Below, piece after piece: positions 11,235-44,470 of a stretch of 64,000 nucleotides of DNA (position 1 is the stretch's first letter; the number at the start of each line of letters is the position of its first letter). The notes under the pieces were generated by a model that had not been told where the DNA came from, made no database searches, and saw only the letters and a list, made by a program, of their open reading frames with translations. Source of the DNA: Pseudomonadota bacterium (lineage in GTDB: Bacteria > Pseudomonadota > Gammaproteobacteria > Burkholderiales > Burkholderiaceae_C); the NCBI GenBank assembly GCA_020161065.1, contig JAIUPH010000023.1, forward strand, positions 45,552 to 109,551. Reading direction: 5' to 3'. The position numbers and the translations under genes are program-made.

Positions 11235-11302
11235 GGCCGGTCGGCTTCACTCGGCCTTCAGGCCGGTCGGCTTCACTCGGCCTTCAGGCCGGTCGCTTTC
11301 AC
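11235..11302 (-). repeat. 26-bp tandem duplication spanning the Bug gene's stop codon
   Basis: Two exact 26-bp copies (11235-11260 and 11261-11286) are followed by a diverged third partial copy inside the coding sequence. Read on the minus strand, each unit contains a CGGCC-TGAA-GGCCG hairpin and the TGA stop of the Bug gene, so the stop and final codons are repeated in the spacer before the CoA-transferase gene. Compare the repeats at 39534 and 44354. Confidence 0.9.
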
Positions 11303-12250
11303 CAGGGCGCGCCACGCGAGCACCTCGTCGCCGATCATCTTCGTGGCATCGGCGCGGCCCTTGAATCGCGGCGAGGCGCCGGCCGCTTCCAGCGCGGCGA
11401 TGACCTCCGGCGAGCCGAGCGCCGCCTTGACCTCGCCCTCGATGCGCGAGACCACGGCCGCCGGCGTCGCTGCCGGCACCAGCACGGCAAACCACGGCGC
11501 CACCACCGCCTTGGGATAGCCGGCCTCCGCCATCGTCGGCACGTCGGGAAACTCCTTCGTGCGGGCATCGCCCACCACCGCCAGCACCTTGACGCGGTTC
11601 GACTTGCCCTGCGCAATGGCCAGCGACGAGGGCATGTAGGTGGCCGACAACTGGCCCGCGACGAGATCGGGAATGATCGGCGGCGCGCCCTTGTAGGGAA
11701 TGGCGACCACGTCGATGCCCGCGACATGCTTGAACAGCTCGAACCCCAGGTGGGGCGTGGAGCCGATGCCGCTGCTGCCGTAGCTCAAGCCGCCGGGCTT
11801 GGACTTCGCCAGGGCGACATACTCCTTCACGCTGGCCACCGGCAGCGAGGCCGGCACGACGAAATAGTTGGGCGACACCGCGAACTGCGCGACCGGGACG
11901 AAGGCCTTCATCAGGTCGGTGCGGATGTTCGGCATCAGCGCCATGTTGGCCGCATTGCTGGTCGTCGCGATCAGCCACGTGTAGCCGTCCGGCCGCGACT
12001 GCGCGACGAAGTCGGTGCCGATGTTGCCGCCGCCGCCGGACTTCGACTCGACGACGAAGGGCACGCCCATGCTTTTGCTCATGCGGTCGGTCAAGGCCCG
12101 GGTCAGGATGTCCACGATGCCGCCGGGCGCGTAGGGATTGATCACCTGGATCGGCTTCGACGGGAACGCGTCCTGTGCCCGTGACAGGCTGGGCGCCGAA
12201 GCCAGGGCGAGGGCCAGGAGCGGAATCGCAATTCGGTTGCGGGCGTTCAT
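11273..12250 (-). CDS. Bug-family periplasmic solute-binding protein
   Basis: 325 residues with a signal peptide (IAIPLLALALASAPSLSRAQ). DAFPSKPIQVINPYAPGGIVD, VVESKSGGGGNIGTDFVA and VPTMAEAGYPKAVVAPW are standard Bug motifs. The ATG overlaps the acyl-CoA dehydrogenase stop (ATGA). It probably delivers the organic acid that the adjacent CoA-transferase and dehydrogenase process. The final codons, the KATGLKAE end and its stop, lie inside a tandem duplication, so this end has been recently rearranged. Confidence 0.9.
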   Translation of the reverse strand: MNARNRIAIPLLALALASAPSLSRAQDAFPSKPIQVINPYAPGGIVDILTRALTDRMSKSMGVPFVVESKSGGGGNIGTDFVAQSRPDGYTWLIATTSNAANMALMPNIRTDLMKAFVPVAQFAVSPNYFVVPASLPVASVKEYVALAKSKPGGLSYGSSGIGSTPHLGFELFKHVAGIDVVAIPYKGAPPIIPDLVAGQLSATYMPSSLAIAQGKSNRVKVLAVVGDARTKEFPDVPTMAEAGYPKAVVAPWFAVLVPAATPAAVVSRIEGEVKAALGSPEVIAALEAAGASPRFKGRADATKMIGDEVLAWRALVKATGLKAE

Positions 12251-13425
12251 TGCGTGGTCTCCAAGCTGCGGGCCACGGCATCGCTCAGCAACCGCTTGCC
12301 GATGGTGATCTGGTGGATCTGGCTGGTGCCTTCGTAGATGCGGAAGGCGCGCACGTCGCGATAAAAGCGTTCGATGCCGCTCTCCTTCACGTAGCCCTGG
12401 CCGCCGAAGATCTGCACGACGCGGTCGGCCACGCGGCCGCACATCTCGGTGGCGTACAGCTTGCACATCGAGACGTCCATCGTCACGTCTTCGCCGCGGT
12501 CGCGCTTGCGCGCGGTCTCCAGCACCAGCGCCTTGGCGGCCTCGATCTCGACCTTGCAATCGGCCAGCATGGCCTGCACGAGCTGGAAGCCGCCGATGGG
12601 CTTGCCGAACTGGCGGCGCCGGTTGGCGTAGGCCACGGCTTCATCGAGCATGCGGATCGCCGGGCCGATGGCGAGCGCGGCCAGGTTGATGCGCTGCTTG
12701 TTCAGCGTCTTCATCACGGTGCGGAAGCCCTTGCCGGGCACGCCACCGATGATGGCGTCGGCCGCGGCGCGAACATCGCGCAGATGCACCTCGCCGATCG
12801 GCCCGCCTTCCTGGCCCATCTTCGGCGTCGGCGCGGAACAGGTCATGCCGGCGGCGCCGCGCTCGATCAGGAAGGCGCTGATCGAATCGGCCGGGCGGCC
12901 GCCTTCTTCGCTGCGCGCGAACACGGTGATCAGGTCGGCAATCGGCGCCAGCGTGATGTAGCGCTTGTGGCCGTTGATCACGTAGCCGCCGGACGCGTCG
13001 CGCCGCGCCACGGTCTGCAGCGCGGTCGCGTCGGAGCCCGCTTCGGGCTCGGTCAGCGCCAGCGCGCCGGTGAACTCGCCCGACGCCAGCCGGGGCAGGT
13101 AGCGCTGCTTCTGCTCGGGCGTGCCGTCCTGCACCAGCGACTCGGAACCGACGCCCGTGTTGATGCCGATGCGCACGCGGTACGCCACCGAGCATTGCGA
13201 GATCTCCATGTTGGCCAAGGCCAGCTCCTCGGTCGTCAGGCCGCTGCCGCCGTAGGCTTCGGGGATCGACCAGCCGAACAGGCCAAGCTCGCGCATGGTC
13301 TGCACGATCTCGTCGGGAATGCGGTCCTCGCGTTCGACGCGCGCTTCGTTGGGCATCGCGAGCTCGCGCACGAACTGCCGGGTCGTGGCGAGAAGCTGGT
13401 CCAGCCGCTGCTTGTCTCTGATCAT
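12247..13425 (-). CDS. Acyl-CoA dehydrogenase
   Basis: 392 residues from the ATG preceded by GGGAGA; an upstream extension would cross the divergent promoter region. FAD enzyme that forms an alpha,beta double bond in an acyl-CoA. Visible motifs: LALTEPEAGSDA (~135-146, FAD signature 1), GHKRYITLA, QRINLAALAIGPA, RRRQFGKPI, and IFGGQGYVKES. The catalytic Glu is in YEGTSQIHQ near the C-terminus. First gene of the operon, transcribed away from the IclR gene. Confidence 0.93.
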   Translation of the reverse strand: MIRDKQRLDQLLATTRQFVRELAMPNEARVEREDRIPDEIVQTMRELGLFGWSIPEAYGGSGLTTEELALANMEISQCSVAYRVRIGINTGVGSESLVQDGTPEQKQRYLPRLASGEFTGALALTEPEAGSDATALQTVARRDASGGYVINGHKRYITLAPIADLITVFARSEEGGRPADSISAFLIERGAAGMTCSAPTPKMGQEGGPIGEVHLRDVRAAADAIIGGVPGKGFRTVMKTLNKQRINLAALAIGPAIRMLDEAVAYANRRRQFGKPIGGFQLVQAMLADCKVEIEAAKALVLETARKRDRGEDVTMDVSMCKLYATEMCGRVADRVVQIFGGQGYVKESGIERFYRDVRAFRIYEGTSQIHQITIGKRLLSDAVARSLETTQ

Positions 13426-13536
13426 TCCCGTCTCCCGCCGATGAAGGTTCGGCGATTCGGGAATGCTAGGAAGCGGCGCGCCGCTTGTGACCGATGTGTC
13501 CCACTCTGCGGGAGGGTTTGGCCGCGCCGTGGCCGC

Positions 13537-13568
13537 ACGATCGCCCCACGATCGCAGCACAATCGCCA
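13537..13568. promoter_or_regulatory. Direct repeats in the divergent IclR control region
   Basis: The 146-bp spacer between the dehydrogenase operon and the IclR gene holds three close copies of a C(A)CGATCG-like word (GCACGATCGC, CCACGATCGC, GCACAATCGC), spaced about one helical turn apart directly upstream of the IclR start. IclR proteins often bind repeated or palindromic sites in such spacers; this assignment is inference. Confidence 0.35.
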
Positions 13569-13571
13569 GCC

Positions 13572-14393
13572 ATGCCGAAGTCATCGTCCCCCCGCGCGAC
13601 GCCGGCGGCGCCCGAAGATGCTTCCGTCGACCCCACGCGCAACTTCGGCATCGCGATCGCCAGGGCTTTCGACATCCTGCGCTGCTTCACGCCCGAGCGC
13701 TCCTTGCTCGGCAACAGCGATCTGGTGCGGCTCAGCGGCTTGCCGCGGTCGACCGTCTCGCGCCTGGCGTTCACGCTGGAAGAACTCGGCTATCTCTATC
13801 GGCTGAGTCCCATCGGCAAGTACCGGCTCGGCTGGGGCGTCGTTTCGCTGGGCTACCCCTTGCTCACCAGCATGGCCTTGCGCCACATCGCGCGGCCGGA
13901 GATGCATGCGCTGGCCGCGCGGCTGAAGGTCAACGTGAACATGGGCACGCTGCACCGCACCTCGGTCGTGTACCTGGAGTCGGTGCACTTCGACGAGACC
14001 AGCACCACGCGGCCGGACATCGGCGCGCCGCGCAGCCTGCTGAGCAGTGCCATCGGCCGTGCCTTGATCTGGAGCCTGGACGAGCGCCGCCGCACGGCGC
14101 TGCTGAACCGGGCCGCCATCGCCGAGCCGGAGGCGTTCGCGCGCACCAAGGCGAAGCTCGCGCAAGCCCGCAAGAGCTTGGTGGCCAGCGGCTTTTGTCT
14201 TTCGTTGGGCGAGACGCGCCAGGGCTACAGCGCCGTGTCGGTGCCGATGCGCGTGGTGTCGTACGAGGAGCCCATCGCCTTCAACTGCGCGACGGCCGAC
14301 CATCGGATGCGCAAGGACCGCCTGCAGAACGAGGTCGGCCCGGCGCTGGTGGCGATGGTGACGATGCTCGAACACCGGGTCGGCATTCGCTGA
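13572..14393 (+). CDS. IclR-family transcriptional regulator
   Basis: 273 residues. N-terminal winged helix (AIARAFDILRCFTPERSLLGNSDLVRLSGLPRSTVSRLAFTLEELGYL, about 27-75; quoted regions fit the IclR helix-turn-helix) and a C-terminal effector domain with SAIGRALIWSL and GYSAVSVPMRV. I start at the MPKSSS methionine; a longer frame would place codons over the repeats upstream. Divergent from the dehydrogenase-Bug-CoA-transferase operon, which it presumably controls in response to the imported acid or its CoA ester. Confidence 0.9.
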   Translation: MPKSSSPRATPAAPEDASVDPTRNFGIAIARAFDILRCFTPERSLLGNSDLVRLSGLPRSTVSRLAFTLEELGYLYRLSPIGKYRLGWGVVSLGYPLLTSMALRHIARPEMHALAARLKVNVNMGTLHRTSVVYLESVHFDETSTTRPDIGAPRSLLSSAIGRALIWSLDERRRTALLNRAAIAEPEAFARTKAKLAQARKSLVASGFCLSLGETRQGYSAVSVPMRVVSYEEPIAFNCATADHRMRKDRLQNEVGPALVAMVTMLEHRVGIR

Positions 14394-14398
14394 CCCCT

Positions 14399-14430
14399 GA
14401 TCAGACGATCAGACGATCAGACGATCAGCC
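14399..14430. repeat. Four tandem 8-bp repeats between convergent genes
   Basis: GATCAGAC occurs three times followed by GATCAGCC, in the 55-bp spacer between the IclR stop and the convergent cfa stop. The units contain the self-complementary word TGATCA/GATC. No gene fits here. Confidence 0.85.
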
Positions 14431-14448
14431 CATCATCGCGTCAGACCA

Positions 14449-15630
14449 TCAGCTGGACACCCGCGCGTAGACGCCGCGCCGCCCCGGCGGCGACAGCACC
14501 CATTGCCAGAGCTGGATGTCGCGCGCGCGAAAGGCGCCGGCGCAGCTCAGCAGGTAGTAGCGCCACATGCGCTGGAAGCGGCTGCCCAGCCGCTCGGCAA
14601 AGCGCGGCCACGCAGCCTGCACGTTGGCGTGCCAGCTGAGCAGCGTGCGGTCGTAGTCGGCGCCGAAGTTGTGCAGGTCTTCGACGACGAAGCGGCGCTC
14701 GCAGGCGCGGCCGATCTGCGCGATGGTGGGCAACTCGCCGTTGGGGAAGATGTAGCGGTGGATCCACGGGTCGGTGCCGTGGCCGTGCTCGTTGCGGCCG
14801 ATGGTGTGCAGCAGCGCCAGCCCGTCGGGCGCCAGGCAGCGCTTGATCACGTCCATGTAGATGGCGTGGTTCTTCTGGCCGACATGCTCGAACATGCCCA
14901 GGCTCGCCACGCGGTCGAAGCGCTCGTCGAGCGACCGGTAGTCGGCCAGGCGGAACTCCACCGGCAGCCCGGCGCAGCGCTCGGCGCCCAGCGCGGCCTG
15001 CTCGGCCGAGATCGTCACGCCGACGCAGTGCACGCCGTAGCGCTCCGCCGCGAACTGCATGAAGCTGCCCCAGCCGCAGCCGATGTCCAGCACGCGCATG
15101 CCGGGCTCGAGCTGCAGCTTGCGGCACACGAGGTCGAGCTTGCGCTCCTGCGCCGCGTCGAGCGTGGCCGCGCCGTCCCAGAAGGCGCAGGTGTAGGTCA
15201 TGCGGCGGTCCAGCATGGCCGCGTAGAAGTCGTTGCCCAGGTCGTAGTGGATGCGCCCCACCTGCCAGGCGCGGGCCTCGGTCTGCAGGTTCAGCCAGCG
15301 CGCGCGCAACTGGTACAGCACCGCGGCCACGGGCTGCAGCCGGCTGCCGAGGTCGGCGCGCAGCAGGCGGTCGAACAGCTCGTCGAGTCGCTCGCAATCC
15401 CACCAGCCGTCCATGTACGACTCGCCGAGGCCCAGCGTGCCCTGCTGCACCGCGCGCTCCAGCACGCCGGGGCGCAGCAGCCGCATGTCCCACGGGCGCT
15501 GGCCGTCGAGCCGGATGTCGGCGGCCTCCAGCAAGGCCTGCGCGGCGCGCACGCCGCGGCGCGACGGCGGTGTCGGCGGGGTCGGCGCCTGAAAGCCCCG
15601 AGACGAATCAACGGTCGAAGAGCCAGCCAT
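14449..15630 (-). CDS. cfa: Cyclopropane-fatty-acyl-phospholipid synthase
   Basis: 393 residues. Adds a methylene from SAM across the double bond of membrane phospholipid acyl chains. The Cfa pattern is clear: LGLGESYMDGWWDC near the N-terminus, HYDLGNDFYAAMLD, MTYTCAFW, the SAM motif VLDIGCGWGSF (~180-190), GVTISAEQ, and FEHVGQKNH. The C-terminal block (HNFGADYDRTLLSWH, MWRYYLLSCAGAFRARDIQLWQ) carries the lipid-site residues. Stands alone; often stress or stationary-phase induced in relatives. Confidence 0.95.
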   Translation of the reverse strand: MAGSSTVDSSRGFQAPTPPTPPSRRGVRAAQALLEAADIRLDGQRPWDMRLLRPGVLERAVQQGTLGLGESYMDGWWDCERLDELFDRLLRADLGSRLQPVAAVLYQLRARWLNLQTEARAWQVGRIHYDLGNDFYAAMLDRRMTYTCAFWDGAATLDAAQERKLDLVCRKLQLEPGMRVLDIGCGWGSFMQFAAERYGVHCVGVTISAEQAALGAERCAGLPVEFRLADYRSLDERFDRVASLGMFEHVGQKNHAIYMDVIKRCLAPDGLALLHTIGRNEHGHGTDPWIHRYIFPNGELPTIAQIGRACERRFVVEDLHNFGADYDRTLLSWHANVQAAWPRFAERLGSRFQRMWRYYLLSCAGAFRARDIQLWQWVLSPPGRRGVYARVSS

Positions 15631-15743
15631 CGCCGCATTCGAGCAAGATTTCGGCGCGGCTGCAAATAGTTATCACCCCAATCGGGTGATTGACGTTGTC
15701 GATGGTGGCGACCGCGGCCGCTGCTGCTGCCGCCGCGTGGCGC

Positions 15744-16214
15744 TCAATCCACCGGCAGCGCCGCGGTGCACTTGATCTCGTCCAGGCAGACGGTGGAGCG
15801 CACCGCCTGCACGCCGGGCGTGCGCATCAAGGTGTCCATCAGAAAGTTCGACAACGACTTGAGATCGCGCGCCACCACCTTCATCACGTAGTCGGAATCG
15901 CCGGTGACGGCGTAGCACTCCTGGATCTGCGCGAGGTCGCCGACCAGCGCCTTGAACTTCGACAGCTCGCGGATGTGGCCGCGCTCCATCACCACGTTGA
16001 CGAAGGCCACCACGTGCAGGCCCAGCGCGGGCGCCGCCAGCCGCGCCTCGTAGCCGCCGATCAGGCCCAGTTCCTCCAGCCGCCGGTGGCGGCGGTTGCA
16101 CTGCGCCGGCGACAGCCCGGCGGCCTGCGCCAGCTCCAGCGTGGTGGCGCGGGCGTTGGCCTGCAGGTGGGCGAGGATGCGGCGGTCCACGGCGTCCAGC
16201 GTGATCGGTGTCAT
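15744..16214 (-). CDS. Lrp/AsnC-family transcriptional regulator
   Basis: 156 residues: N-terminal helix-turn-helix ([20 protein letters not shown] ... [21 protein letters not shown]) and a C-terminal RAM ligand domain ([20 protein letters not shown]). Divergent from hpd with a 135-bp spacer, an arrangement common in Burkholderiales, so it probably controls tyrosine catabolism through hpd, perhaps sensing an aromatic amino acid. Confidence 0.93.
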
Positions 16215-16255
16215 GTTCGTCTCGCGAAGCCCTTGTTCGGCGCGAAATTCTTGCA

Positions 16256-16267
16256 TGACCCCGGTCA
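16256..16267. promoter_or_regulatory. Short palindrome in the Lrp-hpd control region
   Basis: TGACC-CC-GGTCA is a perfect inverted repeat about 40 bases upstream of the Lrp start and 83 upstream of hpd. It is the only clear dyad in the spacer, hence a candidate site for the divergent regulator. Confidence 0.3.
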
Positions 16268-16349
16268 AGCCCGGATGCCCCATGCGCGCACATTGCGAAG
16301 CGGCTTGCCTACAGTCACGCCCCAACGCAACGCTGCACGGAGCAAGACC

Positions 16350-17432
16350 ATGGCCGACCTGTTCGACAACCCGCTGGGCCTGATGGGCTTCGAGTTCGTG
16401 GAGTTCGCATCGCCCACGCCCGGCGTGCTGGAGCCGCTGTTCGAGATGATGGGCTTTCGCCAGGTGGCCCGCCACCGCAGCAAGGACGTGCTGCTGTTCC
16501 GCCAGGGCGACATCAACTTCATCGTCAACCGCGAGCCCAAGAGCCTGGCCGGCTACTTCGCCGCCGAGCACGGCCCCAGCGCCTGCGCGCTGGCGTTTCG
16601 CGTGCGCGATTCGCACAAGGCCTACGCGCTGGCGCTGGAGCGCGGCGCGCAGCCGGTGGACGTGCCCACCGGCCCGATGGAGCTGCGGCTTCCGGCCGTC
16701 AAGGGCATCGGCGGCGCGCCGCTGTACCTGATCGACCGCTTCGAAGACGGCAAGAGCATCTACGACATCGACTTCGAGTGGGTGCCCGGCGCCGAGCGCC
16801 ACCCGCGCGGCCACGGCCTGCAGACCATCGACCACCTGACGCATAACGTCTATCGCGGGCGTATGGCGTACTGGGGCAGCTTCTACGAGCGGCTGTTCAA
16901 CTTCCGCGAGATCCGCTACTTCGACATCAAGGGCGAGTACACCGGCCTCACCAGCCGCGCGATGACGGCGCCCGACGGGCTGATCCGCATTCCGCTGAAC
17001 GAGGAATCGGGCAAGGGCGCGGGCCAGATCGAAGAGTTCCTGATGCAGTTCAACGGCGAAGGCATCCAGCACATCGCGCTGTCGACCGCCGACCTGCAGG
17101 CCAGCGTCGACGCGCTGCAGCTCGCCGGCATCCCGCTGATGACGGCGCCCAACGACGTCTACTACGAGATGCTCGACGAACGCCTGCCCGGCCACGGCCT
17201 GCCGGTGGACGAACTCAAGACGCGCGGCATCCTGGTCGACGGATCCACCGCCGGCGGCGAGAAGCGGCTGCTGCTGCAGATCTTCAGCCAGACGCTCCTG
17301 GGCCCGGTGTTCTTCGAGTTCATCGAGCGCCGCGCCGACCAGGGCTTCGGCGAAGGCAACTTCAAGGCGCTGTTCGAATCGATGGAGCGCGACCAGGTGC
17401 GCCGCGGCGTGCTGAAGACCGAAGCGGCCTGA
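16350..17432 (+). CDS. hpd: 4-hydroxyphenylpyruvate dioxygenase
   Basis: 360 residues, standard for bacterial HPPD. Converts 4-hydroxyphenylpyruvate to homogentisate in tyrosine breakdown. Two vicinal-oxygen-chelate domains: the first begins [16 protein letters not shown]; the second carries the iron ligands His in [12 protein letters not shown] (~160), His in GIQHIALST (~236) and Glu in [11 protein letters not shown] (~317). The C-terminal [19 protein letters not shown] tail is the helix that closes the active site. The next homogentisate-pathway genes are not adjacent. Confidence 0.96.
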
Positions 17433-17443
17433 GGCGACGCCGA

Positions 17444-20245
17444 TCAGTGCAGCGTCAATAAGGTTTCAGGCAACTCGCGGCCGGTGGCCCGGAGGTAGGC
17501 CTCGCGCGCCTGCTGCAGCCGCTGCGCGGCGGGCGCCGCGGCGTGCTGCGCCTGCAGCACTTCGGCCTCGGCGGCCAGCAGCTCGGCGCGCAGCGCGTGG
17601 CCCGGCGGCCAGGTGGCCGACAAGACTTCTTGCGCGCGCTGCAGGGCTTCGGCCGGCACCGGCGCGGCGGGGTCCAGGCCCTGCAGCCAGGCCTGCACGG
17701 CTAGGCAGCGCTGCTGCCGCGGGTTGCCGGCGCCCAAGGCCGCGCCGAAGGTCCCGCAGGCCTGGGCCGCCAGCGCAGCGGCGGCCCGCGGGTCGACCCG
17801 GCGCGACGCCAGCGCCAGGCTCAACTGCTTGCCGGCGCGCTCCAGCGGGTTGTCGGCACGGCCCATGGCGGCGGCGTGGTCGATCGACGCGCGCAGCGCA
17901 CGCAGCCCCTCGTCGCGCCGGCCGGCGCCGAACAGTGCATCGGCCAGCAGCGCGCGGGCCTGCTCGCGGTAGCGGGTGGGCTGGGGGTAGCGCTGGTCGA
18001 AGAAGGCCGACAGCTCGCGCGCCAGCGCCACCGCCTCGTCGTGCCGGCCGTCCAGCGTGAGCAGGCGCACCAGTTGCAGCTTGGCCAGCGCCAGGGCCTC
18101 GGGCTCCACCTGGCTGCGGCGGGCCACCGCATCGACGTTGGCGCGCTGCTCGCGCACCGCCTCGGCGTAGTGCCCGCGCTCGGCCAGCACGCGGGCCAGC
18201 AGCGCGCGCGCCACCACGCTGCGGTCGTGCAGCGGGCCGAGGTGGCGGTCGAAGGCGGGCATCAGCTCGCGCATGCGGCGTTCGACCTCGGCGAAGTCGC
18301 CGCGGTTGAAGGCCAGCGTGGCCAGGCTGTAGCGATTGCCCAGCAGGTCGGTGACGGGGTAGTCGGGCAGCCCCGGGCCGACGCGCTCGATGTGCGCCAG
18401 CAGCGCCTGCGCGGCCGGCAGCTCGCCGCGCGCGATCAGGTTGCTGGCGATGTGGCTGGCCACGGTCAGGTAGTCGGCCGAGGCCTCGCCGCTGACTTGG
18501 GCCTGCGCCGCCAGCGCCTGCCGCCCCAGCGCGGCGCTGCGCTCGAGCTGCCCTTGCTGCGAGGCCAGCCAGGCCTGGTAGGCGAGCACGCGGCCGGTCC
18601 AGCGGTTCGGCGGCGGCTGCAGCCGGTCGGCCGCCGCGGTGGTCTGCGCCAGCGCCGCGGCGGCGGCCTCGAAGTCGCGCAGCTCGACCTTTGCCTGGGC
18701 CAGCCGGAACAGCAGCTCCACGCCGCTTTCGTCGTCGGCCAGCGCGGCCTGGCGGCGCGCCTGCAGCGCCGCGCCCAGGTGGCGCGCGGCGGCGGCCATG
18801 TCGCCCAGCTCGATGAAGATGCCGCCCACCACCTGGTGCAGCCGGGCCTGCAACTCGGGCTGGCCGGCGAACTCGGTGTCGATGCGGCCGGCGGCGCGCT
18901 GCAGCAGTTCGCGCGCGCTCAGCTCGCGGCCCTGCGACTGTTGTGGATCGTTGTCCGACAGCAGCCGCGCCAGGAAGGCCTGCGCCGCCTGGCTGCCGCG
19001 CGCCTCGGCGCGCGCGCGCCCGGCCTGCCACAGCGCCAGCCCGGCGCCGGCCAGCAAGGCGACGGCGACCAGGGCCGACGCGGTGGCCATCAGCGCATGG
19101 CGGCGCAGCAGCCGGCCGGCGCGGTACGCCAGCCCGGCCGGCCGCGCCAGCACCGGCTGGCGCTGCAGGTGACGCTGCAGGTCCTGCGCCAGCGCCTCGG
19201 CCGAGGCGTAGCGCTGTTCGGGCTGCAGGGCCAGCGCTTTCAGCAGCACGGTGTCGAGGTCGCCGCGCAGCGCGCGGCGGGTGGCGGCATCAGCCGCGGC
19301 CTGGCTGGGCGCGCGGATGGCGGCGCCGAGGATGGCTTCTTCCAGCGCCGCCGGCGTGTCGCGCGCCAGCGTGTAGGGCCGCGTGCCGGTGAGCAGCTCG
19401 TACAGCAGCACGCCCAGCGAGTAGACGTCGCTGGCCGTGCCCAGCGGCCGGCCGGCCACCTGCTCGGGCGAGGCGTACTGCGGCGTCAGCGCGCGGCCGC
19501 CCCAGCGCGTGAGGTCGGTCGTTGGCGTGTCCGACTCGGTGCCGGTGTCGGCCTCCAGCAGCTTGGCCACGCCGAAGTCGAGCAGCTTGACCTGGCCTTG
19601 CTCGTCCACCAGCACGTTGCCGGGCTTGATGTCGCGGTGGATCACCAGCCGCGCATGGGCATGCTGCACCGCCTGCAGCACCTGCAGGAAGAGCCGCAGC
19701 CGCGCGGCGGTGTCCAGCCGCCGCGCGTCGGCCCATTGCGTGAGCGGCTCGCCCTGCACGTATTCCATCGCCAGCCAGGGCTGGCCGCCGTCGCTGCCGG
19801 CGTCCAGCACGCCGGCGATGTGCGGGTGCGCCAGCGACGACAGGATGCGCCGCTCGCGCACGAAGCGCTCGGCAATCAGCCGCGAGCGTGCGCCGTCGAC
19901 GAAGGGCAGCTTCAGCGCCACCGGGCGCTGGTGCGCGCCGTCGGCGCGCCGGGCCAGCCAGACGCAGGCCATGCCGCCGCGGCCGAGTTCGGCCTGCAGC
20001 AGATAAGGCCCCACGCGCTGGCCGGCCGCGGGGCCGGCGCTGGCGGCCGGCTCGTCCAGCGCGGGCAGCGCGGCCAGGAAGTCGTGGGTCTCGATCGCCT
20101 GGCGGTCCTGCAGCAGCTCGGCCAGCGGCGCCTGCAGCTCGGCCGGCTGCCGCTGCAGCCACGCGGCGCGCTCGGGCGCCGGCAGTTCCAGCGCATCGTC
20201 CAGCAGCGGCAGCAGGCGGGCCCAGTCGGCGGCGGAGAGCTTCAT
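17444..20245 (-). CDS. Membrane-anchored serine/threonine protein kinase with C-terminal helical repeats
   Basis: 933 residues. An acidic N-terminal helical part (~1-75) precedes a Hanks-type kinase domain (~78-365): Gly loop GRGGMACVW, Lys112 in VALKLP, catalytic loop HRDIKPGNVLVD (~203-214), DFGVAK (223-228) and SPEQVAGRPLGTASDVYSLG. A single membrane helix (~384-406) leads to ~500 residues of helical TPR-like repeats, probably periplasmic. Such kinases are usually encoded just after an ECF sigma factor of the TIGR02999 type; here only a broken piece of that gene lies upstream (20327-20493). All catalytic residues are intact, so the kinase may still work without its partner. Confidence 0.92.
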   Translation of the reverse strand: MKLSAADWARLLPLLDDALELPAPERAAWLQRQPAELQAPLAELLQDRQAIETHDFLAALPALDEPAASAGPAAGQRVGPYLLQAELGRGGMACVWLARRADGAHQRPVALKLPFVDGARSRLIAERFVRERRILSSLAHPHIAGVLDAGSDGGQPWLAMEYVQGEPLTQWADARRLDTAARLRLFLQVLQAVQHAHARLVIHRDIKPGNVLVDEQGQVKLLDFGVAKLLEADTGTESDTPTTDLTRWGGRALTPQYASPEQVAGRPLGTASDVYSLGVLLYELLTGTRPYTLARDTPAALEEAILGAAIRAPSQAAADAATRRALRGDLDTVLLKALALQPEQRYASAEALAQDLQRHLQRQPVLARPAGLAYRAGRLLRRHALMATASALVAVALLAGAGLALWQAGRARAEARGSQAAQAFLARLLSDNDPQQSQGRELSARELLQRAAGRIDTEFAGQPELQARLHQVVGGIFIELGDMAAAARHLGAALQARRQAALADDESGVELLFRLAQAKVELRDFEAAAAALAQTTAAADRLQPPPNRWTGRVLAYQAWLASQQGQLERSAALGRQALAAQAQVSGEASADYLTVASHIASNLIARGELPAAQALLAHIERVGPGLPDYPVTDLLGNRYSLATLAFNRGDFAEVERRMRELMPAFDRHLGPLHDRSVVARALLARVLAERGHYAEAVREQRANVDAVARRSQVEPEALALAKLQLVRLLTLDGRHDEAVALARELSAFFDQRYPQPTRYREQARALLADALFGAGRRDEGLRALRASIDHAAAMGRADNPLERAGKQLSLALASRRVDPRAAAALAAQACGTFGAALGAGNPRQQRCLAVQAWLQGLDPAAPVPAEALQRAQEVLSATWPPGHALRAELLAAEAEVLQAQHAAAPAAQRLQQAREAYLRATGRELPETLLTLH

Positions 20246-34240: not shown

Positions 34241-34245
34241 CGCGG

Positions 34246-35956: not shown

Positions 35957-36075
35957 CGCGTTTAGCGGCGTCGGCGCGGCGCCCGCCGTGTGGATGCAGC
36001 ACGGTGCGGATGGCGACGACCGTGGCATGCCGGCGCATAATTGCGCCGGTTTCTCGATCCAATGTTGCCTCGGCC

Positions 36076-36706: not shown

Positions 36707-36811
36707 GGCGGCGGCGACCGCTGACTGGGCATCGCACCGTTTGAACCGGCAAGGTTGACCGGGCGCGGGGCCCGTGCATGCTGCCCGCGCACGGGGCGCT
36801 GGATGGGCGGG

Positions 36812-37246: not shown

Positions 37247-37265
37247 GGTCGGCCAAGTCTATAAT
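37238..37265 (+). promoter_or_regulatory. Promoter of the rpsP operon
   Basis: A consensus TATAAT (37260-37265) with TGGACT 16 bases upstream. The bases after the -10 (GCGCGGTT) recur after the -10 before rplS. The leader to rpsP is about 130 bases and includes a GC-rich segment, leaving room for control at the RNA level. Confidence 0.7.
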
Positions 37266-37398
37266 GCGCGGTTCCCGTCGCTGGCCATGCCAATGGCGTA
37301 TCTACTTCGCCGGGACAAAAGGTTTTGCTTCGATCGCCCAGGCTCGTGCGTGTCCCCCGGCTGCGGTGGTCTCTTCGACTATCCAAGGAAATCTCAAC

Positions 37399-37647
37399 AT
37401 GGTCGTGATCCGACTGGCTCGTGGCGGCGCCAAGAAGCGCCCGTTCTACAACGTGGTGGTGGCCGATTCGCGCGAGCGCCGTGACGGCCGCTTCATCGAG
37501 CGCGTGGGCTTCTACAACCCGATGGCCGCCGGCGGCGAGCAGCCGCTGCGCCTGGCGCTGGACCGCGTGACCTACTGGACCGGCGTCGGCGCCCAGGTCT
37601 CGCCGACCGTGGCGCGCCTGGTCGGCCAGGCCAAGCAGGCGGCCTGA
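37399..37647 (+). CDS. rpsP: 30S ribosomal protein S16
   Basis: 82 residues. [35 protein letters not shown] and [20 protein letters not shown] are S16 signatures. AAGGAA lies 8 bases before the ATG. First gene of rpsP-rimM-trmD-rplS, the universal order. Confidence 0.98.
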
Positions 37648-37670
37648 GGCCGCGCGCCAAGGCGCCCACG

Positions 37671-38297
37671 GTGTCCCGCGGAGCAGGCTCCGCAGCGAAG
37701 CCGGATCCCCGCGATCCGGCTTCGTCGTTTGCGGCCGACGATGCCGCGCCGCCGGCCGACGCCGTGGAAGTGGCGCGCGTCGTCGGCGCCTGGGGCATCA
37801 AGGGCGGCATCAAGCTGAAGGCTTTCTCGGCCGACCCGCAGGCGCTGTTCTCGTCCAAGCGCTGGTACCTGGCGCCGGGGGAACGCGTGCTGGCGCGGCC
37901 GCCCGGCGCGGCGGCCGCGCTGCCGCGGCTGCTGAAGGTGGTGCAGGCGCGCGAGCAGGGCGAGTTCATCGTCGCCACCGCGCAAGACCTGGACGACCGC
38001 AGCGCCGCCGAGGCGCTGGCCGGCGCCCGCGTCTTCGTCTCGCGCGCCAGCTTCCCGACGCCGGATGCCGACGAGTTCTACTGGGTCGACCTCATCGGCC
38101 TGGCGGTGCGCAACCGCCAGGGGCTGGCGCTGGGCCGGGTCAGCAACCTGATCGAGACCGGCCCGCACTGCGTGCTGCGCGTGCAGCCGGCGGCGGCCGA
38201 TGCCCACGAGGTGCTGATTCCCTTCGTCGACGCCTACGTCGACCGCGTGGACCGCGAGGCCGGGCTGATCGAGGTCGACTGGGATCCGGCTGACTGA
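37671..38297 (+). CDS. rimM: Ribosome maturation factor RimM
   Basis: 208 residues from a GTG start. RimM assists 30S head assembly. [24 protein letters not shown] (positions ~30-53) is the conserved N-terminal core, [13 protein letters not shown] begins the PRC-barrel, and [15 protein letters not shown] ends it. The first ~30 codons are not conserved and contain two perfect hairpins (37678-37724), so the true start may be the GTG at 37764 or initiation may be controlled by the structure. Confidence 0.93.
37678..37724 (+). promoter_or_regulatory. Two adjacent perfect hairpins at the 5' end of rimM
   Basis: Stem GCGGAGC/GCTCCGC with a 2-base loop (37678-37693) is followed by a 12-base stem CGAAGCCGGATC/GATCCGGCTTCG with a CCCGC loop (37696-37724). 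Both lie at the annotated start of rimM, just after rpsP. They could attenuate, process or lower translation of the downstream part of the operon. Confidence 0.7.
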
Positions 38298-38309
38298 CGG
38301 CGGCGCGGC

Positions 38310-39095
38310 ATGCGCTTCGACGTCGTCACGCTGTTTCCCGAACTGTTCGCGCCGCACCTGGCGCAGGGCATCACGCGGCGCGCCTTCGAGTCGGCGCAGG
38401 TCGACGTGCGGCTGTGGCCGCTGCGCGACTTTGCCGACGGCGCCTACCGCCGCGTCGACGACCGCCCCTTCGGCGGCGGCCCCGGCATGGTGATGCTGGC
38501 CGAGCCGCTGCAGCGCGCGCTGGACGCAGTGCGCAGCGACCGCGCCGATCGCGCCGATCGCGCCGATCGCGCCGATCGCGGACAGCCGGCCGCGGTCGTG
38601 CACTTCACGCCCACCGGGCAGCGGCTGGACCAGGCGCTGGTGCAGCGGCTTGCCGCCGGGCCGGGCGCGGTGCTGCTGTGCGGGCGCTACGAAGGCATCG
38701 ACCAGCGCTTCATCGACCGCAACGTGACGCTGGAGATCAGCCTGGGCGACTTCGTGCTCTCCGGCGGCGAGTTGCCGGCGCTGGTGCTGCTCGACGCCGT
38801 GGCGCGGCTGCAGGAAGGCGTGCTGAACGCGCCGTCGCACCAGCAGGACAGCTTTTCCGACGGCCTGCTCGAAGGCCCCGCCTACAGCCGCCCCGAGCGC
38901 TGGGACACGCCCGAGGGCGAGCGCGCGGTGCCGCCGCTGCTGCTGTCGGGCCACCACGGGCAGATCGCCCTCTGGCGGCGGCAACAGGCGCTGGCGCTGA
39001 CGGCGCGGCGGCGTCCCGACCTGCTGGCCGCGGCGCGCGCCGCGGGGCGGTTGTCGGCCGCCGACGAGCGCTTCCTGGCCGGCCTCGGCCCGTAG
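38310..39095 (+). CDS. trmD: tRNA (guanine-37-N1)-methyltransferase
   Basis: 261 residues, SPOUT family with a trefoil knot; methylates G37 in tRNAs and prevents frameshifting. [42 protein letters not shown] and [16 protein letters not shown] are diagnostic. At ~78-90 a four-copy DRA repeat (9-bp unit) expands the loop after the GGGPGMVM strand, compared with usual family members. Confidence 0.97.
38542..38577 (+). repeat. Four in-frame 9-bp repeats inside trmD
   Basis: GCGCCGATC is repeated four times without mismatch, giving Arg-Ala-Asp repeats. Being a multiple of three it keeps the frame. Confidence 0.95.
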
Positions 39096-39109
39096 CTGCC
39101 GGCAGGCGC

Positions 39110-39123
39110 TACAATGCGCGGTT
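39110..39123 (+). promoter_or_regulatory. Probable internal promoter before rplS
   Basis: TACAAT followed by GCGCGGTT matches the rpsP promoter region over 13 of 14 bases. It lies 78 bases upstream of the rplS GTG, just after trmD, and would allow rplS to be made at a higher level than trmD. A clear -35 is not seen. Confidence 0.5.
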
Positions 39124-39193
39124 TTTCGATCCTCTGCCGGGATCTTCGATTCCTTCAACCCACCCGCGCAAGATCGTTCGTCTGGAGCCCTCC

Positions 39194-39547
39194 GTGGACC
39201 TCATCGCCACCCTCGAGCAGGAAGAAATCGCTCGCCTCAACCGCAAGATCCCCGCTTTCGCCCCCGGCGACACGGTGATCGTCAACGTCAACGTCGTCGA
39301 AGGCACCCGCAAGCGCGTGCAGGCCTACGAAGGCGTGGTGATCGCCAAGCGCAACCGCGGGCTGAACAGCAGCTTCATCGTGCGCAAGATCTCCAGCGGC
39401 GAAGGCGTCGAGCGCACCTTCCAGCTCTACAGCCCGCTGCTGTCCAGCATCGAAGTCAAGCGCCGCGGCGACGTGCGCCGCGCCAAGCTGTACTACCTGC
39501 GCCAGCGCAGCGGCAAGTCGGCCCGGATCAAGGAGAAGCTGGCCTGA
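39194..39547 (+). CDS. rplS: 50S ribosomal protein L19
   Basis: 117 residues with a GTG start and GGAG upstream. [60 protein letters not shown] and [21 protein letters not shown] are standard. L19 lies at the 30S-50S interface. The final codons and stop begin an 84-bp tandem repeat. Confidence 0.97.
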
Positions 39548-39729
39548 GCGAAGCTCGGGCAAGGGCCGCAAGGCCCTCATCGCGCGCAGCGCGATGCACA
39601 GCGAACGCGCGAAGCGCAGAAGCTGGCCTGAGCGAAGCTCGGGCAAGGGCCGCAAGGCCCTCATCGCGCGCAGCGCGATGCACAGCGAACGCGCGAAGCG
39701 CAGAAGCTGGCCTGAGCGAAGCTCGGGCA
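39534..39729 (+). repeat. 84-bp tandem repeat spanning the rplS stop codon
   Basis: Two full units (39534-39617, 39618-39701) and a 28-base partial third follow at an exact 84-bp period. Each unit begins with the last codons and TGA of rplS and can fold into four small hairpins: CCTGAGC-GAA-GCTCGGG, AGGGCC-GCAA-GGCCCT, ATCGCGC-GCA-GCGCGAT and GCGC-GAA-GCGC. The 253-bp spacer to the Nudix gene contains nothing else recognisable; open frames through it are made by the repeat. Confidence 0.95.
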
Positions 39730-39800
39730 CAGCGCACGCGCTTCAGCGCCGAAGCCGCCGCCAGGCGGCTTTTTGCTGCCGGGCGGCGCACAATTTCAGC

Positions 39801-40493
39801 ATGAGCCCGCCGCGCATCATCGACCCGCATGCCGTGCCGGTGGCGGGGCACGACCAGCACCTCGACCCGGTGGCGCCGGACCGCCTGACGGCCGCCGGCG
39901 TGCGCCAGCAGTTCCACGCCGCGCAGGGCTTCGAAGCGCCGATCCGCGGCGACGGCGGCCGCCTGGGCGACCCCAGCCGGCCGGCCGCGTCGGCCGCGGT
40001 GCTGGTCGGCCTGGTCGAGCGCGACGACGGCCTGCAAGTGCTGCTGACGCGGCGCACCGAGCATTTGCGCGACCACGCCGGGCAGATCAGCTTTCCCGGC
40101 GGCCGCGCCGAGCCCGAGGACGCCAGCGCCGAGGCGACCGCGCTGCGCGAGGCCGAGGAAGAAGTGGGCCTGGCGCCGGCGCGCGTGGAACTGCTGGGCC
40201 GGCTGCCCGACTACACCACCGTCACGCAGTACGTGGTGACGCCGGTGGTCGGCATCGTGCACCCGCCGTTCGATCTGCAGCTCGACGCCTTCGAGGTGGC
40301 CGAAGCCTTCGAGGTGCCGCTGGCCTGGCTGATGACGCCGGCGCACCACCGCCGCCACGTCTTCCAGTACGACGGCGGGCAGCGCCAGTTCCTGTCGATG
40401 CCCTGGCGGCGCGACCCGCACGCCGGCGAGTACTTCATCTGGGGCGCCACCGCGGCCATGCTGCGCAACCTGTATCACTTCCTGCGCCATTGA
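39801..40493 (+). CDS. Nudix hydrolase, CoA diphosphatase-like
   Basis: 230 residues. The Nudix box is complete: G-x5-E-x7-REAEEEVGL within ISFPGGRAEPED to EEVGLAP (~105-130), preceded by the LLTRRTEHLRDHAGQISFPGG pattern of CoA pyrophosphatases (NudL group). Probably hydrolyses CoA or a related nucleoside diphosphate derivative. The ATG after the repeat is preferred to a longer frame read from the repeat DNA. Confidence 0.92.
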   Translation: MSPPRIIDPHAVPVAGHDQHLDPVAPDRLTAAGVRQQFHAAQGFEAPIRGDGGRLGDPSRPAASAAVLVGLVERDDGLQVLLTRRTEHLRDHAGQISFPGGRAEPEDASAEATALREAEEEVGLAPARVELLGRLPDYTTVTQYVVTPVVGIVHPPFDLQLDAFEVAEAFEVPLAWLMTPAHHRRHVFQYDGGQRQFLSMPWRRDPHAGEYFIWGATAAMLRNLYHFLRH

Positions 40494-40529
40494 CAGGCGG
40501 CCCCGGCGCGCGCCCTATCATCGGCGGCG

Positions 40530-41519
40530 ATGAGCTTCTTCGCCGTCTTGCTGGCCCTGCTGCTCGAACAGCTCAAGCCGCTCCCGCGCGACACCTGGGT
40601 GCACGAGGCGCTGTTCGCCTGGGTGCGCTGGACGGGCCGCAACTTCGACGCCGGCAAGTCGCACCACGGCTGGATCGTCTGGTGCGTCTCGGTGCTGGTG
40701 CCGTCGGCGCTGGTCTGCGGCGTGTACCTGCTGGTGGCGCGCTACAGCCTGCTGCTGGCGCTGGCCTTCGATGTCGCGCTGCTGTACCTGACGCTGGGCT
40801 TCCGCCAGTTCAGCCACTACTTCACCGACATCCGCGACGCGCTGGACCGCGGTGACGAAGACCTGGCGCGCCAGCGCCTGGCCGAGTGGCGCCACCTCGA
40901 TGCCAGCGAACTGCCGCGCACCGAGGTGCTGCGCCATGTCATCGAGCATGCGCTGCTGGCGGCGCACCGCCACGTGTTCGGCGTGTTCTTCTGGTTCGTT
41001 GTGCTGTCGGCGCTGGGCCTGGGGCCCACCGGCGCGGTGTTCTACCGCATGGCCGAGTTCTGCAGCCGCTTCTGGGGCTACCGCCACCGCATGCTCGACG
41101 CGCCGGCCGACGACCACCTGCTGGCACTGTCGCGCCGCATCTTCCAGTGGATCGATCACGTGCCGGCGCGGCTCACGGCCTTCGGCTTCGCGGTGGTCGG
41201 CAACTTCGAGGAAGCCATCGGCGCCTGGCGGCGCGACGCGGCGCTGTGGTACTACGGCAATGAAGGCATCATCCTCGCCGCCGCGGCCGGCGCAGTGGGC
41301 GTGCAGTTGGGCGGCGCCGCGGCGCCGGGCGTCACGCCCGACCGCAGCAAGACCTTCACCACCGGCTTGCCGGCCGACAGCACCGAGGCCCAAGGCTCCA
41401 CCGCAGGCGTGCCGCCGGTGGCGGGCCACCTGCAAAGCGTGGTCGGCCTGGTCTGGCGCTCGGTGGTGCTGTGGATGCTGCTGGTGGCGCTGCTGTCGCT
41501 GGCTAACGTGGTGGGTTGA
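40530..41519 (+). CDS. CobD/CbiB-family membrane protein
   Basis: 329 residues with several hydrophobic helices. MSFFAVLLALLLEQLKPLPR, a long cytosolic part with FSHYFTDIRDALDRGDEDLAR and GVFFWFVVLSALGLGPTGAVFYR resemble the CobD/AmpE-like family conserved next to rsgA in Burkholderiales. No other cobalamin genes are near, so a role in B12 synthesis is doubtful. A TATCAT element lies just upstream. Confidence 0.8.
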   Translation: MSFFAVLLALLLEQLKPLPRDTWVHEALFAWVRWTGRNFDAGKSHHGWIVWCVSVLVPSALVCGVYLLVARYSLLLALAFDVALLYLTLGFRQFSHYFTDIRDALDRGDEDLARQRLAEWRHLDASELPRTEVLRHVIEHALLAAHRHVFGVFFWFVVLSALGLGPTGAVFYRMAEFCSRFWGYRHRMLDAPADDHLLALSRRIFQWIDHVPARLTAFGFAVVGNFEEAIGAWRRDAALWYYGNEGIILAAAAGAVGVQLGGAAAPGVTPDRSKTFTTGLPADSTEAQGSTAGVPPVAGHLQSVVGLVWRSVVLWMLLVALLSLANVVG

Positions 41520-41524
41520 CGGCC

Positions 41525-42463
41525 TCACCAGCGCGTCTGCGACAGCTCGGCGTACAGCTCCTGGTAGATGCGCCAGCGCGAGGCGCTGATGCGCCCGGCC
41601 TCCAGCGCGGCGCGCAGGCCGCATTGCGGCTCTTCGCGGTGCGTGCAGTTGTGGAAGCGGCATTGCCCCAGCTCGGCCGCCAGGTCGGGCATCAGCGCGG
41701 CCAGTTCGGTGGCCTGCAACTGGCGCAGGCCGAACTCCTGGAAGCCCGGCGAATCGAGCACCGCGCCGCGCCGTTCGGCGTCCAGCCAGTACCAGGTGGT
41801 GGTGGTGGTGGTGTGCCGGCCGCTGGCCAGCGCCACCGAGATCTCGCCCACCTGCGCGCCGGCGCCGGGCACCAGGCGGTTGATCAGCGTGCTCTTGCCG
41901 GCGCCGCTGGGGCCGAGGATCAGCGTCGTGCGCCCTTCCAGGCGCGGCCGCAGCAGCGCCAGCGCTTCGTCGGGGGCGGCCTTGACGGCCAGCTCCAGCA
42001 CCTCCACGCCCATCGCGCGGTAGGGCTGCAGGCGCTGGCGCGCGGCGGCGGCCACCGGCAGGTCGGTCTTGTTGAGGCCGATGACCGCCGGGATGCCGGC
42101 CGCGGCGGCGGCGATCAGCGCGCGCGCCAGCTGCGATTCGCTGAACGGCGGGTCGGCCGCCACCAGCATCAGCAACTGGTCGAGGTTGGCGGCGAACGAC
42201 TTGCTGCGCCACTCGTCCTGGCGGAACAGCAGGTTGCGGCGCGGCTCGATGGCCTCGATCACGCCTTCGTCGCCGGCGCGCTGCCAGCGCACGCGATCGC
42301 CGACCACCACCTCGCTTTTCTTGCCGCGCGGGTGGCAGCGCCAGCGCTCGCCTTCGGGCGTTTCCACCACCGCGTGGCGGCCGTGGGCGGCCACCACCAG
42401 GCCGAGGTCGAGGTTGGCGCCGGCGGCGCCGCGGCCGGGCGTCGGCCGCGGGTCGCGGCTCAA
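41525..42463 (-). CDS. rsgA: Ribosome small-subunit-dependent GTPase A
   Basis: 312 residues from a TTG start; the only upstream ATG gives a six-codon frame. Circularly permuted GTPase in late 30S maturation: OB fold, then G4 NKTD (~125), G1 GPSGAGKST (~185-193), switch I, G3 DSPGFQEFG, and a C-terminal zinc knuckle CRFHNCTHREEPQC. The switch I threonines that normally read HTTT are expanded to six, followed by WYWLD. Confidence 0.94.
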   Translation of the reverse strand: MSRDPRPTPGRGAAGANLDLGLVVAAHGRHAVVETPEGERWRCHPRGKKSEVVVGDRVRWQRAGDEGVIEAIEPRRNLLFRQDEWRSKSFAANLDQLLMLVAADPPFSESQLARALIAAAAAGIPAVIGLNKTDLPVAAAARQRLQPYRAMGVEVLELAVKAAPDEALALLRPRLEGRTTLILGPSGAGKSTLINRLVPGAGAQVGEISVALASGRHTTTTTTWYWLDAERRGAVLDSPGFQEFGLRQLQATELAALMPDLAAELGQCRFHNCTHREEPQCGLRAALEAGRISASRWRIYQELYAELSQTRW

Positions 42464-42476
42464 GGCGCGAGGGCCG

Positions 42477-43745
42477 TCATGCCGGCTGCGGCAGCGCCGC
42501 CAGGCGCTCGGAGGCCGGCGGGTGCGAGTAGTAGAAGCGCACGTACACCGGGTCGGGCGTCAGCGTCGAGGCGTTGTCCTCGTGCAGCTTCAGCAGCGCC
42601 GAGGCCAGGCTGCGGCCATCGGCTTGCGCGCAGGCGTAGGCGTCGGCCTCGAACTCGTGGCGGCGCGACAGCTGCGACGCCAGCGGCGTGATGAAGAACA
42701 GGAACGGCGGCAGCGCCAGGCTGAACAGCAGCAGCGCCAGCGCGTCGTTGGGCGCCGCCAGGTTGGGCGCCACGCCCAGGCCGGCGTAGAAGCCGCTGTC
42801 GCCCGCCAGCCAGCCCAGCAGCGCCAGGCCGGCGCCGCTGGCGCCGAAGATCATCAGCATGCGCTTGAGCACGTGGCGGTGCTTGAAGTGGCCCAGCTCG
42901 TGCGCCAGCACCGCCTCCACCTCGGGCGGCGACAGCCGCGCCAGCAGCGTGTCGAAGAACACCACGCGCTTGGCCGCGCCCAGGCCGGTGAAGTAGGCGT
43001 TCGCGTGTGCCGAGCGCTTGCTGCCGTCCATCACGAACAAGCCCTTGGCCGCAAAGCCGCAGCGCTGCATCAGCGCCTGCACGCGGGCCTTCAGCGCCTC
43101 GTCGGGCAGCGGCTCGAAGCGGTTGAAGAGCGGCGCGATCACGGTCGGGTACAGCACCAGCAGCAGCAGGTTGAAGCCGACCCACGCCACCCAGGCCCAG
43201 AACCACCAGCTCGTGCCCAGGCTGCCCATGATCCACAGGATCAGCGCGGCCAGCGGCAGGCCGATCAGCGCGCCGACCAGCGCGCCTTTCAGCAGGTCGG
43301 CGACGAACAGCGCCGGCGTCACGCGGTTGAAGCCGAAGCGATGCTCCAGCACGAAGGTGGCGTAGACGTCGAACGGCAGCTCCAGCAGGCCGCCGATCAG
43401 CGTGAACGCGGCCAGCAGCGATAGCTGGTAGGCCATCGTGCCCCACCGCGGCAGCACGGCGTCGCGCAGCGCGACGTTGAGCGCGTCGAGCCCGCCCAGC
43501 AGCGTCCAGCCCAGCAGCACGGCGGCGCCGAAGGCCATGCTCAGCAGCCCCAGCCGCGCCTTGGCGATGGTGTAGTCGGCGGCGCGCCGGTGCGCCGCCA
43601 GCGTCACGCTGCCGGCAAAGGCCGGCGGCACCTGGTCGCGGTGCCGCGCCACGTGGCGGATCTGCCGCGTGGCCAGCCACAGCCGCAGCGCCAGCCAGGC
43701 CAGCACGACGGCGGCGAACACCAGGGAGACGAACGATGGCTGCAT
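42477..43745 (-). CDS. M48-family membrane metallopeptidase (Ste24-like)
   Basis: 422 residues. Several membrane helices; zinc motif HELGH in [13 protein letters not shown] (~280-292) and the third ligand Glu in [11 protein letters not shown]. [20 protein letters not shown] segment matches CAAX protease/Ste24 peptidases. Probably degrades or processes membrane proteins. It starts at the MQPSFV methionine, divergent from orn by 50 bases, and precedes rsgA. Confidence 0.93.
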
Positions 43746-43795
43746 GGGGCCCGAAGTGTAGGCTTGGGCGAGAATCGCAAGCCCTTCCGAACCGC

Positions 43796-44377
43796 ATGAC
43801 CATGAGCGAAGCCGCCGCCCCTGCACCGACCCTTGCCGCCAGCGAACACAACCTGATCTGGATCGACCTCGAAATGACGGGGCTGTACCCCGACCGCGAC
43901 CGCATCATCGAGGTGGCGGTGGTCGTCACCGACCCGCAGGTGAGCGTGCGCGTCGAAGGCCCGGTGCTGGCGGTGCACCAGAGCGACGCCGTGCTCGACG
44001 CCATGGACGCCTGGAACAAGGGCACGCACGGCAAGAGCGGGCTGATCGACCGCGTCAAGGCCTCGGCCGTCGACGAGGCCGCGGCCGAGGCCGAGGTGAT
44101 CGCCTTCTTGCAGCGTTATGTGCCCGCCGGCAAAAGCCCGATGTGCGGCAACTCGATCTGCCAGGACCGCCGCTTCCTCGCCAACACCATGCCGCGGCTG
44201 GAAGCCTTCTTCCACTACCGCAACCTCGACGTCAGCACGCTCAAGGAACTGGCGCGGCGCTGGAAGCCCAAGGCGCTGGAAGGCTTCAAGAAAGCGCAGG
44301 CGCACACGGCGCTGGCCGACATCCACGAGTCGATCGACGAGCTGCTGCACTACCGCCAGCACCTGCTGGCGGTTTGA
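43796..44377 (+). CDS. orn: Oligoribonuclease
   Basis: 193 residues (191 if the second ATG is used). DEDDh 3'-5' exonuclease that degrades 2-5 nt RNAs and pGpG. Motif [11 protein letters not shown] (~20-29), [25 protein letters not shown], and the late [18 protein letters not shown] with catalytic His/Asp. The final seven codons and stop form the first unit of a four-copy repeat. Confidence 0.96.
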
Positions 44378-44470
44378 CGGTCCGCGCCAGCACCTGCTGG
44401 CGGTTTGACGGTCTGCGTCAGCACCTGCTGGCGGTTTGACGGTCCGCGCCAGCATCTGCTGGCGGTTTGA
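44354..44470. repeat. Four 31-bp hairpin repeats spanning the orn stop codon
   Basis: Units begin at 44354, 44385, 44416 and 44447, period exactly 31. Each has an 8-base stem CGCCAGCA/TGCTGGCG with a 2-base loop, then GTTTGA, the orn stop, and a short linker. Unit 3 changes one stem C to T, keeping a G-T wobble; unit 4 changes only the loop. The array fills the space between orn and the convergent DUF1501 gene and can act as a two-way transcription end, though no U-tract is present. Confidence 0.95.

Follow-up and report, generated by a model that had tools for sequence, protein, structure and literature searches.

Stop-spanning tandem duplications in a Burkholderiales genome and a candidate hairpin-linked hot spot at the end of orn

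Why should three unrelated genes in one stretch of bacterial DNA each carry tandem copies of their own stop codon, together with a hairpin? The question arises from a 64,000-nucleotide stretch (hereafter the window; positions 45,552 to 109,551 of contig JAIUPH010000023.1, assembly GCA_020161065.1) of a Burkholderiaceae_C genome of 6.29 Mb in 41 contigs, called G000 below. Among titled loci, those nearest to its orn gene are from Rubrivivax-type Burkholderiales. Tandem Repeats Finder (TRF) reports 124 rows for the window, and the top three scores all belong to arrays that span a stop codon; the next row scores only 81. On the forward strand, orn (43796..44377, start by our own gene caller, stop 44375-44377) ends in a 31-bp array of 3.8 copies (44354..44470; 94% match, score 213; TRF and reading), and rplS (39194..39547, stop 39545-39547) ends in an 84-bp array of 2.3 copies (39534..39729; 100% match, score 392). 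On the reverse strand, a gene for a Bug/TctC-family substrate-binding protein (11273..12250, start likewise by our caller, TGA stop at 11273-11275) ends in a 26-bp array of 2.6 copies (11235..11302; 95% match, score 122). Pfam and NCBIfam identify the three products as oligoribonuclease, ribosomal protein L19 and TctC. The copies lie head to tail with high identity, as in minisatellites, and so do those of the arrays in relatives described below.

These arrays bear out the initial annotation, which had described tandem copies of the last codons and the stop at all three genes, with unrelated unit sequences. Each unit matches only its own site in the whole G000 genome (one match each), which rules out a dispersed repeat family of the REP, MIRU or BOX type. 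The hairpins it had described are also present in the units: that of the Bug gene contains CGGCC-TGAA-GGCCG, with a 5-bp stem, and each of the two identical full copies at rplS contains perfect hairpins. The third rplS copy departs from this description, as 28 identical bases are followed by a diverged stretch that, by eye, lacks the two perfect hairpins. At orn the hairpin exists, ACCGCCAGC-ACCT-GCTGGCGGT, with a 9-bp stem and a 4-nt loop, but it is formed by the last orn codons (44352..44373), and the three downstream copies keep seven of its nine pairs because the junction alters the outer two.

We consider it probable that the arrays arose as short tandem duplications through DNA slippage and are tolerated since the stop is retained, with the orn hairpin acting as a hot spot. 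Strand misalignment would make the short duplication, and a duplication that includes the stop would be kept: the protein is unchanged, as the gene still stops at the first copy and any further ones lie in the spacer. At orn, where we propose the hairpin as the seed, lineages with the full 9-bp hairpin would repeatedly gain a 31-33 bp duplication (the hairpin, the stop and a linker of ~6-12 bp) that afterwards expands or decays. We infer slippage as the mechanism, gain over loss in pairs of relatives, the hairpin as the cause, and neutrality.

Part of the evidence for this reading is the recurrence of stop-spanning copies at orn. We compared 81 genomes of the genus, one per species, and left out G005, which lacks orn, and G088, whose orn is truncated by the end of a contig; in the remaining 79 species the end of orn was located by motif (60) or by coordinates (19). 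A repeat of the gene end, counted when 18 of 22 bases match within ~150 bp, is found in 10 of the 79 species, G000 included, against a background of 31 of 1963 gene ends. Two of the ten, G096 (locus L303) and G014 (L045), have copies that are those of the convergent neighbour or are common to it and orn; these species were scored as misses in a strict count, which gives 7 of 78 other species versus 18 of 669 gene ends with a spacer of at least 60 bp (P = 0.005). For periods of 26-36 bp the counts are 4 of 78 and 4 of 669 (P = 0.0013). As a same-locus control, 116 other gene ends yield two with copies, both of them the convergent neighbours in G096 and G014; relative to this control, Fisher's P for orn is 0.005 at 18 of 22 bases (9/78) and 0.086 at 20 of 22 (4/78). 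The gene convergent to orn in G096 (L303, 111-1436) has a 29-bp array of its own across its stop, made of its last codons and TGA.

Four of the seven orn arrays follow the same plan as that of the window (last codons, stop, short linker), with five 32-bp copies in G083 and 2.9 in G075 and, by reading, two 33-bp copies in G045 and three decayed 33-bp copies in G010; the copies in G045 and G010 fall below TRF scoring and are based on the 22-base comparison and reading. A 32-bp duplication in G238, from another genus, is the sixth case. The linkers vary between arrays. When doubled orn ends were first sought by pattern, 4 of the 81 genus genomes matched, among them G041, which was discarded on reading as a chance match. 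We found no paper on stop-spanning arrays at orn in a literature search that scarcely covered subscription journals.

Is this recurrence linked to the hairpin? All nine pairs can form at the end of orn, wobble allowed, in 8 of the 79 species, and arrays of ~32 bp are present in five of these eight versus none of the other 71. Leaving G000 aside, the counts are 4 of 7 versus 0 of 71 (Fisher P 2.5e-5, in a test that is partly post hoc since G000 itself supplied the geometry of the hairpin). Searching 399 genomes of the family for the hairpin end adds four species outside the genus, one of which (G238) has the duplication, while at the order level the orn hairpin pattern was matched in 1 of 399 genomes, that of the window itself. 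On a tree of 50 orn genes, from which the last 30 coding bases had been removed, the six arrays require six changes, and a single clade is rejected by the approximately unbiased test (p-AU 2.6e-9). The hairpin also occurs in near relatives that lack an array: G007 beside G045, G321 beside G238, and G051 and G123 beside G010. G007 and G045 differ at orn by one clean 33-bp insertion, which confirms the single-copy state in a near relative. These relatives and the differing linkers lead us to read the history as hairpin first, followed by separate gains. The end of orn would be a hot spot at which stop-spanning tandem duplications recur in association with a hairpin, a genuine small surprise of the comparison.

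The sites themselves say something about what such a hot spot might need. In G238, by eye, ACCGTC on the gene side and ACCGCC on the flank side border the duplicated segment, and another strong palindrome comes next; border direct repeats of this kind are not evident in G045 or G000. It seems to take a hairpin together with its location at the end of a gene, and perhaps repeats nearby as well. Passages of PMC4134008 describe how slippage occurs between direct repeats at hairpins, and the third rplS copy, lacking the two perfect hairpins, fits hairpin loss by slippage as presented there. The observation is a fresh instance of a known mutational kind.

Are stop codons favoured sites in general? 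The initial annotation had suggested a repeated process or a selected architecture. We sampled 78 further stretches of G000 (1,527,646 bases, 1394 genes, window left out) together with portions of three related genomes (800,000 bases, 744 genes), 2.33 Mb over the four genomes, with genes called by our own script and not by a published gene caller. Arrays touching non-coding DNA were compared with random placing of the original segment over stop-spanning and intergenic positions. In G000 there are 5 stop-spanning arrays versus 4.1 expected at score 80 (P = 0.39) and 12 versus 9.3 at score 60 (P = 0.19). The four genomes together have 8 versus 7.1 at score 80 (P = 0.41), 18 versus 13.6 at score 60 (P = 0.11) and 27 versus 20.6 at score 50 (P = 0.07), and the three relatives alone have 6 versus 4.3 at score 60 and 3 versus 3.0 at score 80; their 13 versus 6.9 at score 50 (P = 0.008) is the single placement result that favours an excess at stops. 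A smaller sample taken first, with the window in it, had also shown an excess (14 versus 6.6 expected at score 60, four of them from the window), which is gone outside the window. Frequencies near chance there are the outcome that the initial annotation had named as refuting its proposal. At most genes, stop-spanning arrays would be chance survivors of slippage, without a genome-wide excess; the proposal of a repeated process holds clearly at orn and fails as a general property of stops. With scores of at least 80 and periods of at least 20, there are three stop-spanning arrays in the window and three in the other 1.53 Mb of G000. The cluster of three is unusual, but the window was picked because of it. 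A fourth, weaker stop-spanning array of the window (14400-14452, GATCAGAC-type units, score 62) lies between two convergent genes.

Starts and gene interiors show a different pattern. Arrays that overlap a start codon number 1 versus 7.0 expected in a first subset that included the window (score 60) and 2 versus 3.1 in G012; in the 1.53 Mb outside the window three were observed, plus two that cover both a start and a stop (observed counts alone). Among arrays of score 60 with a period of at least 10 and few indels, the period is a multiple of three in 124 of 127 intragenic arrays, versus 17 of 32 in intergenic DNA and 6 of 14 over stops. Rare start arrays, in-frame intragenic arrays and stop arrays near expectation are what purifying selection predicts, and a duplication over the stop is cheap because the first copy still terminates the gene. 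According to passages of PMC4060949, the representation of longer-unit tandem repeats in prokaryotes is mostly normal. Convergent neighbours are not over-represented, with 7 of 26 stop-spanning arrays that have a neighbour (window included) versus 558 of 2079 gene ends. The orn array of the window is itself followed after ~10 bp by the stop of a convergent DUF1501 gene (44480..45685, reverse strand) and thus lies between two gene ends.

A general link between hairpins and arrays, also proposed at the outset, does not extend beyond the window. The three units of the window are fairly stable for where they lie: among 600 stop-spanning G000 segments of the same geometry for each unit, folds at least as stable occur in 15% for the Bug gene, 4.5% for rplS and 5.8% for orn. 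Stop-spanning units outside the window fold like controls (mean fold quantile 0.446 for 12 arrays and 0.446 for 250 controls); lower quantiles for 13 units including the window (P = 0.054) had suggested otherwise, and that difference vanishes without it. Gene ends with stems of at least 9 bp showed strong copies in 2 of 7 cases versus 6 of 1956 (P = 3e-4), a result we regard as unreliable, one of the two being a 9-bp simple repeat. A gene end in G007 (L278, 7754-8554) has a hairpin with a 13-bp stem over its stop and then a copy at a 30-bp offset with a second stop, the orn plan at another gene.

The end of rplS, unlike that of orn, is not copied at any of 29 other loci (22 of them in the same genus), drawn from 37 other genomes that gave a match; the best second copy reaches 15 of 22 bases, and the maximum in shuffled sequence is 16. 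The rplS array is private to G000, with no counterpart among the 29 loci. For the Bug gene there is no close orthologue in the relatives searched, identities among the matches listed being at most 43%. The single-copy ends with which rplS and orn of G000 can be compared come from more distant relatives, and for the Bug gene, whose best other match is at about 42% identity, none was found.

A number of observations weigh against slippage at a hairpin hot spot. Besides the post hoc element of the Fisher test, an array is absent from three of the eight species of the genus that have the hairpin, and G046, G053 and G084 carry stop-spanning arrays of 12-14 bp at orn without the full hairpin. A phylogenetic independent-pairs test finds 2.7 pairs for the association and none against it (median p 0.25, range 0.125-1), which are too few pairs, and the tree is blind to gain versus loss. 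Copies show no enrichment near strong hairpins of the four genomes that lie in non-coding DNA or at gene ends (4 of 162 versus 7 of 380), so the hairpin alone is insufficient. The core palindrome GCCAGC-N4-GCTGGC has 2118 sites in the 81 genus genomes, presumably most of them in coding sequence, and is tandemly doubled solely at orn of G000. Finally, in G075 copies 1 and 2 a paired A-T replaces C-G, and in G238 (period 32) the second copy pairs fully, by eye; either may reflect selection on pairing or mere youth. As a separate observation, the same palindrome is seven times commoner than its reversed pattern (302 sites) in these genomes, in raw counts uncorrected for codon usage.

The pairing kept in G075 and G238 would fit a selected 3'-end RNA architecture, in which hairpins after the stop would shield the mRNA from 3'-5' exonucleases and so be favoured. 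Arrays at orn in six lineages fit this explanation, as do hairpins without a U tract that stabilise the mRNA of upstream genes in E. coli, as described in passages of PMC5927463. It is the main rival, but we consider it unlikely. Selection on pairing predicts hairpins maintained in the copies, as the initial annotation had also held, yet the downstream orn copies keep from nine down to four of the nine pairs: seven in G000 and in G045, eight and seven in G075, eight in copies 4 and 5 of G083, and five and four in G010. One inner pair is broken in copy 2 of G045 and in copies 4 and 5 of G083. The wobble in copy 3 of the G000 array, which had been taken as a sign of maintenance, is one C-to-T change opposite G; such a change always yields a G-T pair and is no evidence of maintenance. 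The most diverged copies have lost the most pairs, which leads us to prefer slippage at a hot spot. Beyond orn, other stop-spanning arrays are no more folded than controls, and within the genus 71 of the 79 orn genes have neither the full hairpin nor a ~32-bp array.

Two narrower functions had been suggested for the copies. Tandem transcript ends do not agree with the sequence between 39400 and 44700, where none of five terminator-like sites falls within the rplS or orn array. One of them, an intrinsic-terminator-like hairpin (39757-39769) with a T run (39757..39774, forward strand), lies beyond the 3' end of the rplS array. The hairpin of the Bug unit is, by eye, not followed by a T run, so that a tandem of intrinsic terminators, a hairpin plus T run in each unit, is rejected for all three arrays; Rfam gives no match to any array of the window at its gathering score. 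Backup stops appear unlikely because the periods of 26 and 31 place the copied TGA out of frame. A role of the orn copies at RNA ends is possible by analogy. A combined scenario, in which the end of orn recurrently generates stop-spanning minisatellites, the added hairpins tune oligoribonuclease mRNA as RNA 3'-end elements, and mutation bias and selection reinforce each other, strikes us as speculative and likewise unlikely. If the orn copies did act on RNA ends, a mutation bias would be linked to the dosage of an RNA-decay nuclease.

Pure chance, three unrelated slippage products within 64 kb and no hot spot, appears improbable as an account of all three arrays. It agrees with the lack of a genome-wide excess, with the private rplS array and with the selection of the window for its cluster; arrays at orn recur in other species and are linked to the hairpin, which speaks against it. 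Chance is therefore disfavoured at orn and stands for rplS and the Bug gene. That the arrays were invented or expanded by the assembler is very improbable: the genome is a draft in 41 contigs, the two full rplS copies are identical and an error at any single array is conceivable, but copies differ among themselves at orn and the Bug gene, six genomes have different arrays at orn, and short-read assemblers collapse repeats more often than they expand them.

Slippage at a hairpin hot spot would make orn a natural test bed for hairpin-seeded duplication, as one gene end occurs with and without the hairpin and in single-copy and duplicated near relatives. The window also counsels caution, as repeats that overlap stop codons seem purposeful, yet the survival of harmless duplications predicts them.

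Other repeats and features were noted along the way. A 198-bp unit occurs ~7 times (70% match) in an apparently non-coding part of G000 (L213, contig C18, 446-1866), with a score of 821, the top TRF score in the first 1.19 Mb sampled. On contig C4 (L178, 19659-19760), a GACGACTGC simple repeat of 11 copies lies between two convergent gene ends and extends into them. In the whole window Rfam matches just one feature, a tRNA gene at 56426-56496.

How do the stop-spanning arrays compare with known systems? Bacterial intergenic minisatellites, or variable-number tandem repeats (VNTRs), are the tandem repeats used in multiple-locus VNTR analysis (MLVA). Like the arrays described here they have units of tens of bases that are unrelated between loci; here, in contrast, the unit starts in the gene and includes the stop. 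The rtl repeats of E. coli tyrT are also tandem copies that take in a gene 3' end, but the gene encodes a tRNA and the unit is longer. Mycobacterial MIRU overlap stop codons as well, but they form one dispersed family. Work by Trinh and Sinden in 1993 reportedly concerned hairpin-assisted slippage, to go by its title. Hairpin-assisted slippage as presented in parts of PMC4134008 likewise involves a hairpin where the change occurs, along with short direct repeats such as those noted by eye in G238; those parts deal with deletions, whereas at orn duplications of a hairpin and stop would be the outcome. The TAACTGA heptamer of Beggiatoaceae, as characterised in passages of PMC4679880, is one dispersed 7-bp intergenic family, mostly located just 5' of start codons in the genome described, whereas the units described here are unrelated to one another.

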